DNA of 64,000 nt from Allobosea sp. UNC402CLCol (GTDB lineage: Bacteria > Pseudomonadota > Alphaproteobacteria > Rhizobiales > Beijerinckiaceae). The stretch is taken from the NCBI RefSeq assembly GCF_000745475.1, contig NZ_JQJJ01000013.1, positions 62,001-126,000 on the forward strand, in the 5' to 3' direction. Each line of letters begins with the position of its first letter. Within the stretch, counting starts at the first letter, position 1. Shown in pieces: positions 31,036-57,974 of this stretch. The notes beneath the pieces were generated by a model, which saw only the letters and a list, made by a program, of their open reading frames with translations, made no database searches and was not told the origin of the DNA. The position numbers were made by a program, and so were the translations under genes.

Positions 31036-31056
31036 CGCATCGGCCGCTGGTTTCAC

Positions 31057-31173
31057 GAGCCCTCATCCTGAGGAGCCGCGTGAGCGGCGTCTCGAAGGAT
31101 GTTCCAGAAAGCTCCGGAACCATCTGGAGCATCCTTCGAGACGCGCCTGCGGCGCTGCTCAGGATGAGGGCTC
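31057..31173. repeat. Double-palindrome intergenic repeat
   Basis: Outer arms GAGCCCTCATCCTGAG / CTCAGGATGAGGGCTC (16 bp, perfect) enclose inner arms GCGTCTCGAAGGATG / CATCCTTCGAGACGC (15 bp, perfect). The element can fold as one long cruciform or two hairpins. Closely similar repeats are widespread between genes in Hyphomicrobiales. It fills nearly all the space between cobU/P and the riboswitch leader, and ends one base from the alternative GTG of cobU/P. Confidence 0.9.
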
Positions 31174-31228
31174 GCGGATGACACGTCCTTTGCATTGCAC
31201 AGCGTCACCGCGAAGGCTAATGATCGTC

Positions 31229-31392
31229 GCTGACGGTGCCTCCGCGAGGAGGTGAAAAGGGAACGCGGTGCGAGACCGCGGCTGCCCCCGCAACTGTAAG
31301 CGGATGTCCTTCGCCATCGGCCACTGGAGCGCACGCTCCGGGAAGGCGGCACAAGGGCGCCAAATCCGCGAGCCAGGAGACCTGCCGTCGAC
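31229..31392 (+). ncRNA. Cobalamin riboswitch
   Basis: The canonical order is present: P1 arm TGACGG near 31231, GGTGCC, AAAAGGGAACGCGGTG, CCCCCGCAACTGTAAGCGG (the L4/J region), CGGGAAGGCGGCACAAGGG, then the B12 box GCCAGGAGACCTGCC at 31372-31386 and the closing P1 strand CCGTCG. It is followed by ~48 nt with a GC-rich helix candidate (GGCTGCCGGCGGGGCGGC) and GGAG 6-9 nt before the cbtB ATG, so control is probably at translation initiation. Coenzyme B12 binding would turn down the cbt-cob operon. Confidence 0.95.
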
Positions 31393-31440
31393 CCGCAACG
31401 ATCCAACCGGCTGCCGGCGGGGCGGCTACGGAGAACAGTC

Positions 31441-33873: not shown

Positions 33874-36800
33874 ATGCATCTTCTCCCGACCAGCGAGATC
33901 CGGCTCGACGACGGCGAAGACGCCGTCGATCTCGCCCTGCCGCCGGGAGATGTGCTCGTCCTGTCCTTCACCGACAGCGACCTCTCGGCGCTGGCGGCGG
34001 CGGCGGGTGGCAGCAGCCTGTTGGTGCGCCTCGCGCCGCTTCGGCGCTTGAAGCATCCGCTTTCGGTGGACTTCCTGATCGAGAAGACGGCGCAGCAGTG
34101 TCGCTTCGTGCTGCTGCGCTGCCTCGGCGGCCTCGACTACTGGCGCTACGGCATCGAGCAGTTCGGCATCGCCTGCCGCGAACGGGGCATTCCGCTCGCG
34201 ATCCTGCCCGGCGACGAGCGCGACGATCCGAGGCTCGGCGAACATGCGACGGTGCCGGCGGAGCTTGCGGCGGAACTGCTGGCCTATTTCCAGGCGGGCG
34301 GCGGCGCCGAGAACATGCGGCGGATGCTGGCGCGGATTTCCGCATATGTGACAGAGGTTCAACCCTCATCCGGCCCGGCTTCGCCGGGCCACCTTCTCCC
34401 CCGAGCGGAGAAGGACGAGACGGATATCACCGCATCCTTCTCCGCTCGGGGGAGAAGGTGCCGGCAGGCGGATGAGGGCCGGCGCGACGCGACCGATCTT
34501 GCGCCTTTTCCTCTCCCAGCTTTCTTCGCGCTCGATGGCGACGGCCTTCCTCTGCCCTGGCGAGACGCCCTTACCGCCCTGCCGGCAGACAAGCCGCTCG
34601 TCCCGATCCTGCTCTACCGCTCCGGCGTCGCGGCCGGCGACACGGCCATGGCCGAGGCGATGACCGCCGCCCTCGCCGCCCGCGGCCTCGCGCCCCTGCC
34701 CCTGGCCCTGACCAGCCTGAAGGACCCGGCTGTCACGGCGGAGCTCGCAGCGCTGATCGCGACCCGCAGACCCGAACTGATCGTCACCACCACCGCCTTC
34801 TCTGCTCGCGAAGGCACCGATTTCGTGCTCGACGCCGCCAATTGCCCGATCCTGCAGGCCATGCCCGTCGGCAGTCCGCGCGAGGCCTGGGACGCCTCGC
34901 CGCGCGGCCTTTCCGCCGCCGATCTCGCCATGCAGGTGGCGCTGCCGGAATTCGACGGACGCATCGGCGCCATTCCGGTCGCCTTCAAGGCGGAGGAGAA
35001 TGACCCGGCGACCGGACTTACCATCCGCCGGCTGGTGCCGGATGCCGAGGGCATCGCCGCGCTGGCCGATCTCGCGGCCGGCTGGATCGCTCTCGCACTG
35101 AAGCCTGCAGCGGAGCGCCGGCTGGCGCTGGTGATGTCGGACTATCCCGCGCGCGGCGGCCGGGCCGGCTTCGCCGTCGGGCTCGACACGCCGGCGAGCG
35201 TGACGGCGATCCGGGAATTGCTGGCCGAGGCGGGATATGAGGTTGGACCGTTATCCTCCACCGTCATCCCGGGCGACCAAACGGAAACCCGGGATCCATG
35301 CCTGAACCTTTCCGAGCGACGTTCCGGCATGGATCCCGGATCGACGCCGCTGACGCGTCTTGTCCGGGATGACAGCGCAGATATGAATGAGGGGGCTAGC
35401 TTGATGGCAGCCCTCACCACCGGGGCTGCCGAGCTGAGCATTCCGCTCACAGCCTATAGCGACTGGCTCGCCGCGATCCCTGCCCCCGCCCGCGAAACAC
35501 TCCTCGCCGCCCATGGCGCGCCTGAGGCCGATCCAGCCTGCCGCGACGGCGCCTTCCATTTCCGCGCCGTCCGCCATGGCAACCTCATCGTCGCCCTGCA
35601 ACCGGCTCGCGATGCGACGCCCGACCGCAAGGCTGTTTATCACGACCCCGACGCGCCGCCCGGTCACGGCTATCTCGCCTTCTACCTTGCGTTGCGCCAG
35701 TCCGAAGCCATCGACGCGCTGATCCATCTCGGCACGCACGGCACGACGGAATGGCTACCGGGCAAGGCGGTGGCGCTCTCGGCCGGCTGCTGGCCACGCC
35801 TCGCTGTCGGCGGGCTGCCGGTGATCTACCCTTATGTTGTCGACGATCCCGGCGAAGCAGCGCCCGCCAAGCGGCGGCTCTCAGCCCTTACGCTCGGCCA
35901 TCTGCCGCCGCCGCTGGCCGAGACGGAAGCCGCCGGCGAAACCGCACTGCTGCGCGACCTCGTCGAGGAGTTCTCGCAGGCGCAGGTGCTGGATCCGCGC
36001 CGCGCCGACGTCGTCGCCGCGGAAATCCGGGCGCGGGCCGAAGCGAGTGGGCTCGCGGCCTCCTGCGGCGTCGCGCCGGACATGTCGATGAGCGAGGCGT
36101 TGACGCGGCTCGACGCGCATCTCTGTGACATCGCCGAACTGCCCTTCCGCGATGGCCTGCATATCTTCGGCCATTCCGACGCCGACCCGGCCTCCGCCCG
36201 CAACGAGCGCGAAAACCTGCTCGCCGCGCTCGACGGCCGCTTCGTCCCGCCCGGCCCAGCCGGCTCGCCGCATCGCGGACGTCCGGACGTGCTGCCGACC
36301 GGGCGCAATCTCTCGACGCTCGACCCCCGCGCGATCCCGACGCGGGCGGCGGCCCGACTGGGCCAGCTCGCGGCGCAAGCGGTGGTGTCGCGCCACCTGC
36401 AGGATCACGGCGACTATCCCCGCCGGATCGTCATGGACCTTTGGGCCTCGCCGACGCTGCGCTCGGGCGGCGAGGACATCGCCCATGCGCTGGCGCTGAT
36501 GGGCGTCGAGCCCCTCTGGGACTCGGCCTCGTCCCGCGTCACCGGCTTCAGCATCATCCCGCAGCCGAAGCTGGCCTTCCCGCGCCTCGACGTGACCGTA
36601 CGGATTTCCGGCACCTTCCGCGACACCTTTCCGGGGCAGATCGCGCTGATCGACCAGGCGGCGCACGCAGTCGCGGCGCTCGACGAGCCGAATGACTGGA
36701 ACGAGCCCGCCGCGGCCCGTCGTCGCGGCGAGCATGGCGGCCGCATCTTCGGCGCCGCGCCCGGCCGCTATGGCGCGGCCATGGCCGACCGCGCACTCGA

Positions 36801-37431
36801 CGGCGACTGGACCGAGCGAGCAGAGCTCGGCGCCGCCTATCTCGCCGCTTCCGACCATGCCTATGGCGGCCCGGAAGGCGCGGCCACAGCCGATGCCGGC
36901 TTTGCCGGGCGCATCAAGGCTTCCGACGCGTTCATCCATGTCAGCGACACCGCCGGACGCGACATCCTCGAAGCCAGCAGCGCGGCCGACGTGATCGGCG
37001 GGCTCGCGGCGGCGGCGAAGGCGCTCGGCGCCGATCCGGCGCTCTACAGCCTCGACAGTTCCAACCCGGAAGCGCCGAAGGCACGCACATTGGCCGAGGA
37101 TATCGGCCGCATCGTCCATGGCCGCCTGACCCATCCGCGCTGGATCGCCGGGCAGCTCGCCCATGGCTGGCGCGGCGCGGCAGAACTCGCGGAGGCTGTC
37201 GATACGCTCTTCGTCTTCGCGGCGAGCACCGATGCTGTCGCGGATGGGCTATTCGATGCGGTGTTCCAGGCCTATTGCGCCGATCCACAGGTCTGGGCGG
37301 CGCTCGAAGCCAACAATGCGCCGGCTGCCGCCTCGATCCGGTCCCGGCTCGCCGATGCCGCACGGCGCGGACTCTGGACGAGCCGGCGCAACTCGGTCGG
37401 CGCCTTCCTGGCGCGGGAGGCCGCAGAATGA
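33874..37431 (+). CDS. cobN: Cobaltochelatase subunit CobN
   Basis: The 1185-residue protein is the large subunit of the aerobic, ATP-dependent cobalt chelatase that inserts Co2+ into hydrogenobyrinic acid a,c-diamide with CobS and CobT (not in this window). Recognisable CobN stretches include FVLLRCLGGLDYWRYGIEQ, the LPADKPLVPILLYRS segment, LGTHGTTEWLPGKAVALS, YPYVVDDPGEA, and RIVMDLWASPTLRSGGEDIAHALALMGV. Two stretches, residues ~164-202 and ~463-501, have no counterpart that I know in the family and coincide exactly with palindromic repeat elements. Without them the length (~1107) is that of short alphaproteobacterial CobN. The frame is intact through both. The stop overlaps the cobG ATG (ATGA). 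Confidence 0.93.
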   Translation: MHLLPTSEIRLDDGEDAVDLALPPGDVLVLSFTDSDLSALAAAAGGSSLLVRLAPLRRLKHPLSVDFLIEKTAQQCRFVLLRCLGGLDYWRYGIEQFGIACRERGIPLAILPGDERDDPRLGEHATVPAELAAELLAYFQAGGGAENMRRMLARISAYVTEVQPSSGPASPGHLLPRAEKDETDITASFSARGRRCRQADEGRRDATDLAPFPLPAFFALDGDGLPLPWRDALTALPADKPLVPILLYRSGVAAGDTAMAEAMTAALAARGLAPLPLALTSLKDPAVTAELAALIATRRPELIVTTTAFSAREGTDFVLDAANCPILQAMPVGSPREAWDASPRGLSAADLAMQVALPEFDGRIGAIPVAFKAEENDPATGLTIRRLVPDAEGIAALADLAAGWIALALKPAAERRLALVMSDYPARGGRAGFAVGLDTPASVTAIRELLAEAGYEVGPLSSTVIPGDQTETRDPCLNLSERRSGMDPGSTPLTRLVRDDSADMNEGASLMAALTTGAAELSIPLTAYSDWLAAIPAPARETLLAAHGAPEADPACRDGAFHFRAVRHGNLIVALQPARDATPDRKAVYHDPDAPPGHGYLAFYLALRQSEAIDALIHLGTHGTTEWLPGKAVALSAGCWPRLAVGGLPVIYPYVVDDPGEAAPAKRRLSALTLGHLPPPLAETEAAGETALLRDLVEEFSQAQVLDPRRADVVAAEIRARAEASGLAASCGVAPDMSMSEALTRLDAHLCDIAELPFRDGLHIFGHSDADPASARNERENLLAALDGRFVPPGPAGSPHRGRPDVLPTGRNLSTLDPRAIPTRAAARLGQLAAQAVVSRHLQDHGDYPRRIVMDLWASPTLRSGGEDIAHALALMGVEPLWDSASSRVTGFSIIPQPKLAFPRLDVTVRISGTFRDTFPGQIALIDQAAHAVAALDEPNDWNEPAAARRRGEHGGRIFGAAPGRYGAAMADRALDGDWTERAELGAAYLAASDHAYGGPEGAATADAGFAGRIKASDAFIHVSDTAGRDILEASSAADVIGGLAAAAKALGADPALYSLDSSNPEAPKARTLAEDIGRIVHGRLTHPRWIAGQLAHGWRGAAELAEAVDTLFVFAASTDAVADGLFDAVFQAYCADPQVWAALEANNAPAAASIRSRLADAARRGLWTSRRNSVGAFLAREAAE
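34363..34478. repeat. Palindromic element inserted in frame in cobN (copy 1)
   Basis: Outer arms CCCTCATCCG / CGGATGAGGG (perfect) and inner arms ACCTTCTCCCCCGAGC... / ...GCTCGGGGGAGAAGGT (25 bp, perfect inverted repeat, 34390-34414 and 34436-34460). The element encodes about 39 residues (PSSGPASPGHLLPRAE..., ending ...RQADEG) of cobN without a stop. It sits between the N-terminal domain (ending RRMLARISAYV) and the next conserved block (PLPAFFALDGDGLP), a linker in this family. Confidence 0.85.
35262..35374. repeat. Palindromic element inserted in frame in cobN (copy 2)
   Basis: Ends are GTCATCCCGG / CCGGGATGAC (perfect 10-bp arms) and inner arms CCGGGATCCATGCC / GGCATGGATCCCGG (perfect 14 bp). 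It encodes VIPGDQTETRDP... to ...RLVRDDS, ~38 residues, in frame between AGYEVGPL and GASLMAAL, which are adjacent (through a short loop) in CobN proteins as I know them. The same terminal arms mark intergenic copies at 42962 and 51199. Confidence 0.87.
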
Positions 37432-38819
37432 GCGCGCTGTCCCGAAAGGAATCGCTGGCGTCGGCGGAAGCGCTGAGGCGCGGCTGGTGCCCGAGCACGT
37501 TGAAGCCGATGGAGACCGGCGATGGCTGGCTGGTGCGCCTGCATCCGCCTGGGGCAAGGCTGACTCCCATGCAATTGCGACAGATTGCGGCTCTGGCCGG
37601 CGAGCATGGCAATGGGCTGATCGAGATCTCGGCGCGCGCCAATCTGCAGATCCGCGGCGTGAAGCCCGAGAGACACCCGGCGCTGGTCGAGCGACTGCTG
37701 GCGGAGCGTCTCGTCGATGAACATGACGGCGACGGGCCGCAGCGGCTGACACTGGTTTCGCCGCTGGCGGGATTCAACGAGGCCGTCCTGCTCGGGCTCG
37801 ACCCGAGCATCTCTTCGACGCGTTTCTCGGCTCGGCGCCACGCGCCGCCCGAGAATGACGGCCGGGGCTTGGTCGATGCCTTCGCGCTGGCCGAGCAGAT
37901 CGAAGGGCAGGCCCGCGCGATTCCAGGCCTGCCGGCCAAGCTCTGCGTCATCGTCGACGATGGCGGCCCCCAAGCGCTGGATGGGTTCGCTTGTGATATC
38001 CGGCTCGTCGGCATCGGAGCCGGGCGTGTGGCGCTGGGCCTTGCCGATCGTCTCTGGCGCGGCCCGATCCCCGGCGATGACGCTGCCGCAGCGGTTGAAA
38101 CCATCCTGGACCGCTTTGCGAAGCTGCGAAGCGCGGCGCCCGACCGCGTCCGCCGCCTGCGCGATCTGTTGCCTGAAGCCCTGGCCGGCCTCACCGCCTT
38201 GCCCGACATCACCGCGCCGATGCGACGCCCTCCGCCCCGGCGCGCCGGGCTGTTCAAGCTGGCGGAGAAGCGTTTCGCGGCGCTCATCGGCCTGCCCTTC
38301 GGCCGCTGCGATGCGGCGGCGCTCGACAAGCTCGGCGCGGGCACCGAGGCGAGCCTGGCCGATATCCGGCTTTCGCCCTGGCGGGGGCTCGCCTTCCGCA
38401 ATCTCGACCGCAGGGAAGCCGTGAACCTGCTCGCACTGGCAGGTGATCTCGGGCTGATCACGCGCGACGACGATCCGCGCCTCTCGGTGCAGGCCTGCGC
38501 CGGCAGCCCCGCCTGCTCGCGTGCAGAGGCACCGACCATGGCGGATGCGGCCGTTCTCGCCGACGCGGCCGCCGGCCTCCTTGCGCAGGGCGTGACCCTG
38601 CATGTCTCCGGCTGCGTCAAGGCCTGCGCCCATCCCGCTGCCGCCGACCTCACGCTGGTCGGGCGACGGGGCGAATATGATGTCGTGCTCGGCGGCACGA
38701 CGCGGGACAAGCCGCTTGCGACGCTTGACCTTTCGGCGCTGCTCACGCGATTGCAGCCGGGACAAGAGATTCACGCGCGCCTGACCGAGGCCGCGCGTTC
38801 AACAGGACCGCGCGGTTGA
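37428..38819 (+). CDS. cobG: Precorrin-3B synthase CobG
   Basis: The 463-residue protein has the sulfite/nitrite reductase ferredoxin-like half domains (GWLVRLHPPGARLTPMQLRQIAALA, NGLIEISARANLQIRG) and the [4Fe-4S]/siroheme-type Cys set CAGSPACSRAEA ... VSGCVKACAHP. CobG is the O2-dependent mono-oxygenase that oxidises precorrin-3A, and marks the aerobic cobalamin route. Residues ~119-145 (VLLGLDPSISSTRFSARR...) are a palindromic repeat element translated in frame; the family normally goes from PLAGFN/D directly to DAFALAEQ-like sequence. The ATG overlaps the cobN stop and the TGA overlaps the cobH TTG, so translation is coupled. Confidence 0.9.
   Translation: MSALSRKESLASAEALRRGWCPSTLKPMETGDGWLVRLHPPGARLTPMQLRQIAALAGEHGNGLIEISARANLQIRGVKPERHPALVERLLAERLVDEHDGDGPQRLTLVSPLAGFNEAVLLGLDPSISSTRFSARRHAPPENDGRGLVDAFALAEQIEGQARAIPGLPAKLCVIVDDGGPQALDGFACDIRLVGIGAGRVALGLADRLWRGPIPGDDAAAAVETILDRFAKLRSAAPDRVRRLRDLLPEALAGLTALPDITAPMRRPPPRRAGLFKLAEKRFAALIGLPFGRCDAAALDKLGAGTEASLADIRLSPWRGLAFRNLDRREAVNLLALAGDLGLITRDDDPRLSVQACAGSPACSRAEAPTMADAAVLADAAAGLLAQGVTLHVSGCVKACAHPAAADLTLVGRRGEYDVVLGGTTRDKPLATLDLSALLTRLQPGQEIHARLTEAARSTGPRG
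37784..37861. repeat. Palindromic element inserted in frame in cobG
   Basis: The 78-bp stretch CGTCCTGCTCGGG ... CCCGAGAATGACGG matches the intergenic copy at 57044-57122 almost end to end: both have GCTCGGGCTCGACCCGAGCA with its internal CTCGGG-CTCGA-CCCGAG hairpin, a variable middle and the CGCCCGAGAATGACGG end. Here it encodes VLLGLDPSISST... to ...PPENDG of CobG with no stop. Confidence 0.88.
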
Positions 38820-56473: not shown

Positions 56474-57031
56474 ATGTCCGATCTCGTCGTCATCGTCTAT
56501 CCGACCGAGGCCCGCGCCGAGGAGATGCGCCAGAAGCTCATCGGCCTGCAGAAGGAATATCTGATCGAGATCGGCGACGCCGCCATCGCGGTGATGCATG
56601 AAGACGGCAAGGTGAAGCTCAACCAGCTGCTCAACACCACGGCGCTCGGCGCGGTCTCCGGCTCGTTCTGGGGGCTGCTGATCGGTGCGATCTTCCTGAT
56701 GCCGCTCTTCGGCGCCGCGCTCGGCGCGGCCTCCGGCGCACTCGGCGGCGCGCTGACCGATTACGGCATCGACGACAAGTTCATGAAGGACCTCGCCGGC
56801 AGCCTGCAGCCCGGCAATGCGGCGCTGTTCGTGCTGGTCAAGAAGGTGACCGGCGACAAGGTGCTGGAGGCGATCCGCGGCACCGGCGGCACCGTGCTCA
56901 AGACCTCGCTCGACCGCTCGCAGGAGCAGAAGCTGCGCGACGCGCTGGCCGATGCCCACGCGACCATGCCGCCGGCAGCCGACGCCGCGCCGGCGCCGCA
57001 GGGAACCGGCGCTCCCTCGCCCGTGGGCTGA
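56474..57031 (+). CDS. DUF1269 family membrane-associated protein
   Basis: The 185-residue protein starts SDLVVIVYPTEARAEEMRQKL, has AAIAVMHEDGKVKLNQL, then a Gly/Ala-rich hydrophobic hairpin (GAVSGSFWGLLIGAIFLMPLFGAALGAASGALGGALTDYGI) and a soluble domain FMKDLAGSLQPGNAALFVLVKKV. This is DUF1269, of unknown role, common near stress genes. The C-terminus is Pro/Ala-rich and disordered. GCAGGAGCG lies before the ATG. No direct tie to the neighbours is evident. Confidence 0.82.
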   Translation: MSDLVVIVYPTEARAEEMRQKLIGLQKEYLIEIGDAAIAVMHEDGKVKLNQLLNTTALGAVSGSFWGLLIGAIFLMPLFGAALGAASGALGGALTDYGIDDKFMKDLAGSLQPGNAALFVLVKKVTGDKVLEAIRGTGGTVLKTSLDRSQEQKLRDALADAHATMPPAADAAPAPQGTGAPSPVG

Positions 57032-57043
57032 GCGATCACCTTC

Positions 57044-57122
57044 CCGTCATGCTCGGGCTCGACCCGAGCAACTCCTGCCGGAGATTCCCGGGTCGAAGCT
57101 GCGCTTCGCCCGAGAATGACGG
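57044..57122. repeat. Palindromic repeat between DUF1269 gene and dapD
   Basis: CCGTCATGCTCGGG and CCCGAGAATGACGG end a 79-bp element with the internal hairpin CTCGGG-CTCGA-CCCGAG. It is the intergenic counterpart of the copy inside cobG (37784-37861). It fills the gap between two convergent genes and could serve as a termination region. Confidence 0.88.
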
Positions 57123-57131
57123 TACGCGTTC

Positions 57132-57974
<843 letters not shown>

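Follow-up and report, generated by a model that had tools for sequence, protein, structure and literature searches.

Palindromic repeats of several families within the cobN and cobG genes of Bosea

Repeats at the cobN–cobG locus

The stretch of DNA analysed here (the window, 64 kb) comes from a Bosea genome of 5.6 Mb in 16 contigs, labelled G000, and contains a group of cob genes. A cobalamin riboswitch was found upstream of these genes at 31218..31403 on the forward strand; it scored 131 bits with Rfam model RF00174 (gathering score 31.5) and was the sole Rfam match at gathering score in the window. A copy of a further repeat, referred to below as family C, adjoins the riboswitch at 31056-31172 (G000:C12:93056-93172). 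The genes and repeats considered are the following:

33874..37431, + strand: cobN, encoding a cobaltochelatase subunit (PF02514, E 1.8e-259)
34390..34460, + strand: repeat of the 'LLPxGEK' type at CobN site 2, of a family other than A; two 26-nt arms, 100% complementary; fold z -11.0
35262..35374, + strand: CGTC repeat pair at CobN site 3, of a third family; fold z -6.75
37428..38819, + strand: cobG, presumed to start at the earliest ATG in the frame that can be aligned; nitrite/sulfite reductase fold
37783..37861, + strand: CGTC-tagged palindromic repeat pair of family A within cobG, at about residues 120-146 of CobG (464-residue translation from 37425)
57044..57122, + strand: intergenic copy of family A, flanked by called genes at 56474-57031 (+) and 57132-57974 (-)

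The product of cobG, which we take to be precorrin-3B synthase, includes a PF03460 domain at residues 28-93, and its best Foldseek match is NirA (1zj8_A, E 9e-20). Cysteines 358, 364, 397 and 401 (numbering from 37425) are invariant in 57 Bosea sequences.

The first-pass annotation proposed that a piece of cobG matches the repeat at 57044-57122, and this was borne out. The two copies are 78% identical over 79 nt in an ungapped alignment, with the closest likeness at the two ends and over the first hairpin, and the left edge of the cobG repeat falls at 37783, one base upstream of the start given before. Family A recurs far more often than chance would allow. Scoring 40 of 183 first-look candidates in the same genome gave at least 57 matches at E ≤ 1, and 62 of the 67 Bosea genomes have matches at E ≤ 0.001. 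Full copies of family A consist of paired hairpin units that carry CGTC at both outer ends, the tags facing outward. The cobG copy has an 8-bp stem; the loop of its first unit is 5 nt, while that of the second unit is long and has a hairpin of its own inside. The tails of family A are CTC, and those of families B and F, described below, are CCA. As RNA, the cobG copy folds with a z of -4.0 and the 57044-57122 copy with a z of -5.4, both beating 200 of 200 shuffles.

It was also claimed that the repeat is read through in the CobG frame, and indeed the frame runs on through it, for about 26 residues, without a stop codon. This says little by itself, because in 30 such repeat pairs sampled from the same genome a mean of 2.77 of the six frames were open, against 2.54 after base shuffling.

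Coding and non-coding copies in the genome

The first 400 kb each of contigs C8, C9 and C10 (1.2 Mb, 21% of the genome) were sampled, and genes were called with a home-made caller that gave coding fractions of 0.82-0.86 (84% overall). Scanning for repeat units as a CGTC pattern with a 9-bp stem and at most one mismatch yielded 34, 37, 46 and 4 matches in C8, C9, C10 and the window respectively, as opposed to 0, 1, 2 and 1 in the reversed sequence, and a chance likeness of GC-rich coding DNA was rejected on these counts. Ninety-nine of the 117 matches in the 1.2-Mb sample lie outside called genes and 18 inside. The 18 were judged, by reading the listing, to be ordinary codons, with stems unlike those of the repeat families and lying in well-known proteins without a gap; the reversed control (3 matches) does not explain their number. 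The 99 outside matches form 64 clusters, which were built after the 18 in-gene matches had been removed, and none of the 64 has coding context on both sides. The codon-context test detected the cobN pair and the cobG copy of the window but has limited sensitivity: of 33 clusters that lie inside cobN and cobG, 21 passed. The case for depletion from genes therefore comes chiefly from the gene calls.

When the inserts of all four sites were used as blastn queries, 110 clusters were obtained in the 1.2-Mb sample. Four of these lie in genes and measure 19-24 nt each (E 0.002-0.005); none of the other 106 was found within a called gene or with coding context. Of the 30 best family A loci of the genome, a few of them two halves of a single copy, none but that in cobG passed the context test. 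No further true repeat within a gene was found in the 1.2 Mb. An excess of copies in coding DNA over random expectation, which the first-pass annotation had put forward, is therefore rejected. The opposite was seen: coding copies are strongly depleted, an outcome that the annotation itself had named as one that would refute it, and the cobN–cobG pair stands out in a sample that covers 21% of the genome, elsewhere in which other hospitable genes may exist.

The same two genes stand out across the genus. Eleven cob genes were aligned from 51-58 Bosea genomes, with protein ends ignored and with the CobG of G021, the CobN of G066 and the CobL of G019, which are not in a single frame, left out. No internal insert of at least 14 residues was seen in cobW, H, I, J, K, L, E, M or B. 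In CobN such inserts occur at three sites, in 11, 23 and 20 of 54 aligned Bosea sequences at sites 1, 2 and 3, and G025 has an additional 14-residue insert adjoining site 3. The earlier suspicion that the three inserts of the window cluster in cobN and cobG beyond chance thus holds, but they are not copies of one element, as they belong to three repeat families. Eleven repeat matches in genes other than cobN and cobG (seven in cobK and one each in cobE, cobB, cobW and another gene) were judged to be chance, and a few matches inside cobN and cobG also look like chance.

Probable turnover of repeats across the genus

CobG is present in 58 of the 67 Bosea genomes, G000 included. The linker that holds the insert, from 'SPLA' to 'LIDAAALA', is 3-13 residues long where a long insert is absent and 25-60 residues in 12 of the 57 aligned Bosea sequences, against an overall median of 5. 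Among all 58, the site is occupied in 14, of which G021 and G009 were identified by hand, scarred in three (scar-like remnants in G048 and G050, and a doubtful one in G035) and without a recognisable repeat in 41. In G021 the repeat is read in frame across the site and the frame shifts downstream, near a run of N. The assembly of G009 (L180) breaks inside the cobG repeat, the contig ending within it at the linker site; draft genomes can therefore hide such inserts.

Outside the genus, no repeat was found at the CobG linker in 45 loci of 36 non-Bosea genomes (our count), which comprise best matches and chosen places rather than a random sample, and the linker is short in all of them. The alignment of CobG proteins that had been proposed as a check thus shows the expected gap, with the insert missing from most Bosea sequences and from all 45 other loci, and the cobG piece is confirmed as an insertion. 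Another genus within the family (e.g. G166, G292 and G350) has long CobG inserts at other loops, and by eye several peptides among the CobG inserts of L258, L261, L262, L268 and L269 resemble translated palindromic repeats.

The occupants of the CobG site, assigned by eye, fall into five mutually unrelated families:

Family A: G000, G029 and G059
Family B: G015, G019 and G021
Family F: G040, G047 and G014, with scars in G048 and G050
Family P: G020, G032, G064 and G009
Family C: G003

These families are repeated in their own hosts. Family F has 64, 60, 56 and 45 matches in G040, G047, G014 and G048 compared with 6 in G000, and family P has 90, 34, 21 and 33 in G064, G020, G032 and G003 compared with 1 in G000. 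Family C gave 45-80 matches in each of the five genomes searched, with 55 in G000, and family B was matched in 64 of 67 Bosea genomes. Match counts are not copy counts here, since both strands of one palindrome can give a match.

One tight group of genomes carries family B in G019 and G015, family F in G047 and a family F scar in G048 and G050. By parsimony the states of the CobG site require 13 changes on the CobG tree and 14 on a tree of nine proteins, and shuffled labels gave a mean of 13.8 (a test done before G009, G021 and G050 were added); the states are scattered, without clustering on the tree. If losses are free, at least nine insertions, the doubtful G035 among them, are needed on the CobG tree and at least ten on the nine-protein tree. 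Allele exchange between species would cut these numbers, though never below the number of families. The three family A inserts may be a single event, because they begin at a common offset and two of them have a nearly identical spacer. Different families probably entered the CobG site, decayed to scars, were lost and were replaced within one genus.

In CobN the states of site 2 group together on the gene's own tree (14 changes against a shuffled mean of 20.1), those of site 1 are near the shuffled value (10 against 10.5), and those of site 3 require only slightly fewer changes than expected (17 against 18.9). Inheritance rather than fresh insertion explains much of the occupancy of sites 2 and 3, as these counts indicate, and this weighs against serial turnover there.

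Proposed permissive loops and competing explanations

In the CobG model (mean pLDDT 89) the ferredoxin-like half domain (Pfam 28-93) precedes the insert, and a helix that begins at residue 152 follows it. Internally, pLDDT drops below 50 only at residues 127-139 and 141-144, both within the insert, which is predicted to be disordered. The CobN model is weak, with a mean pLDDT of 69 and 14 low stretches, of which the two longest, 164-205 and 461-504 (below 50), cover the occupied sites. The alignment of CobN to its nearest solved structure, 9uk9, is broken around both of these sites, between query residues 163 and 240 and between 461 and 523. Site 1, which is not of low confidence, sits in a short loop that joins a helix (34-44) to a strand (51-55). 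The dN/dS of CobG is 0.21-0.31 in eight pairs in which at least one member has an insert or scar, and 0.21-0.26 in three pairs without; that of CobN is 0.11-0.21. No frame shift or stop was seen in 53 of 55 CobN and 57 of 58 CobG sequences, the CobG exception being G021. The rest of cobN and cobG is under continued purifying selection.

We consider it highly probable that these observations reflect a serial and nearly neutral turnover, in which selfish palindromic repeats succeed one another at permissive loops, as a strong variant of the in-frame repeats of Rickettsia. A mobile palindromic repeat that encodes nothing itself, here a CGTC-tagged REP pair, would have inserted into cobG and been read through. 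Several such families would be scattered through each Bosea genome, and selection would purge the copies within genes unless they are in frame, free of stops and within a flexible loop. The permissive places would be three loops of CobN and, in CobG, the linker that follows the ferredoxin-like half domain; different families could enter them, decay to scars there, be lost and replace one another, all inside one genus. The CobG enzyme would be made with the inserted residues, which are presumably harmless, and the elements were presumably moved by an enzyme.

Such an enzyme was sought as PF01797. It gave no match in G000, whereas the same search was positive in 5 of 14 control genomes, and mobilisation by RAYT in G000 was accordingly rejected; six of the 67 Bosea genomes have matches.

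Plain tolerance does not predict that elements of two families should begin at almost the same base, as F and B do, and a further case weighs against the preferred reading: in G066, a two-contig genome, the insert at CobN site 1 (L228) is out of frame with the remaining gene, which is either a disrupted gene or a sequencing error. The starting points raise the alternative of a targeted landing pad, at which a resident palindrome or scar attracts further repeats, so that DNA targeting matters more than protein tolerance. Families F and B start within one base of each other, at +9 or +10, in G040, G047, G015 and G019. In four genomes (G006, G049, G052 and G063; L177, L212, L215 and L226) the hairpin arms of the repeat at CobN site 2 have other repeats nested within them, and in G063 one of two nested repeats differs in kind at the same nested place. 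The nested repeat is abundant in its hosts, with 41 matches in G049 and 70 in G063 versus 1, 3 and 0 in G000, G014 and G034; the copies nearest to transposase genes, among the matches listed, are about 15 kb away in G049 and about 25 kb in G063. That four of the six PF01797 genomes are those with nested repeats is suggestive, but the four form one clade, and the tie was not retained. On the other side, other elements of the CobG site start elsewhere: family A at +14 in three genomes, family F in G014 at +18, family C at +27 and family P in G032 at +4, while the start in G064 is ambiguous and none was placed for G020. Predicted low confidence also marks the stretches that hold the insert of CobG and sites 2 and 3 of CobN, and a search for target-site duplications of 2-9 nt in 30 pairs gave no consistent positive signal. 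A landing pad is a much less likely account; were it true, a linker in a protein, once it held a repeat or its scar, would draw further repeats of unrelated families to the same nucleotides or into the hairpin arms, and would so renew itself as a point of entry for new coding sequence.

The inserts might instead be kept for a function, for example as an mRNA hairpin at a domain boundary that tunes translation, or as a peptide that alters the enzyme. Repeats that are unrelated in sequence but alike in being palindromic are found again and again at loops in two genes of the same pathway. At CobN site 2, where states cluster on the tree, a hairpin stem is present in 16 of the 17 'L'-type inserts, with 378 of 384 cells paired. 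Retained pairing can, however, stem from recent insertion or from arm-to-arm correction. The majority of CobG sequences lack a recognisable repeat, some carry scars, and CobG states are unclustered on the tree, which makes a retained function improbable. In the repeat at 34390-34460, one stem pair is C-G in G000 and G-C in 14 of 15 other genomes, the fifteenth being altered on one side only; arm-to-arm correction would produce such a swap.

Descent of all families from a single element, as diverged copies of it, would account for orthologues being hit at one locus and for the shared offset and spacers of the family A inserts, but it is already contradicted by families that are unlike in sequence, each repeated in its own host, and by the short linker of near relatives, and we regard it as very improbable. 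Decay of cobG and cobN with an accumulation of insertions could draw on the frequency of inserts in the two genes, on the frame-shifted CobN of G066 and on an in-frame stop in the CobN of G033, but is scarcely credible and already contradicted for most genomes by the low dN/dS, the largely intact frames and the invariant cysteines of CobG.

The preferred reading, serial turnover at permissive loops, can be set beside three known systems. RAYT (Y1)-mobilised REPs are palindromic and encode nothing themselves, and family A resembles these REPtrons in both respects; Bosea differs in that PF01797 has no match in 61 of the 67 genomes, G000 among them. The CGTC REPs are closer. In the parts of their description considered here, they have a CGTC tag, a stem of 8-9 bp, a loop of 4-5 nt and a 3-nt tail that is mostly CCA, are paired and mostly intergenic, and are mostly known from alpha-Proteobacteria; Table 1 gives no association with transposase genes, and intragenic copies are known, for which flexible linkers and loops were proposed as neutral places (PMC3733652). 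Family A shares with them, so far as that account goes, the CGTC tag, the 8-bp stem, the 5-nt first loop, the paired units and the mostly intergenic location, and differs in its CTC tail and in the long, hairpin-bearing loop of its second unit. Beyond what those parts describe, Bosea shows several families turning over at one orthologous site across the genus. A literature search, mostly of titles and abstract openings, returned no description of such turnover for Bosea or for cobN and cobG.

Palindromic repeats read in frame are best known from Rickettsia. The RPEs lie in frame within conserved genes, at solvent-exposed parts of proteins, and carry an ATGAC signature, according to the portion of the report consulted; all aligned Rickettsia orthologues have the insert at the same sites, and hot spots for different elements were weighed there against one diverged insertion, with a common origin favoured (PMC3767692). 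Measured against that portion, the Bosea inserts are alike in being in-frame palindromes in a conserved gene, a likeness of behaviour, and unlike in that the aligned Rickettsia orthologues are all occupied, whereas in Bosea the CobG site is mostly empty and, where it is filled, is taken by families unrelated to each other. Because unrelated families, empty relatives and scars are found at one site within a genus, the CobG linker is a clear case for the hot-spot alternative in a genus other than Rickettsia. It amounts to a natural experiment in insertion tolerance, and suggests selfish DNA as a source of new protein sequence in a genus that does not belong to the obligate intracellular bacteria.
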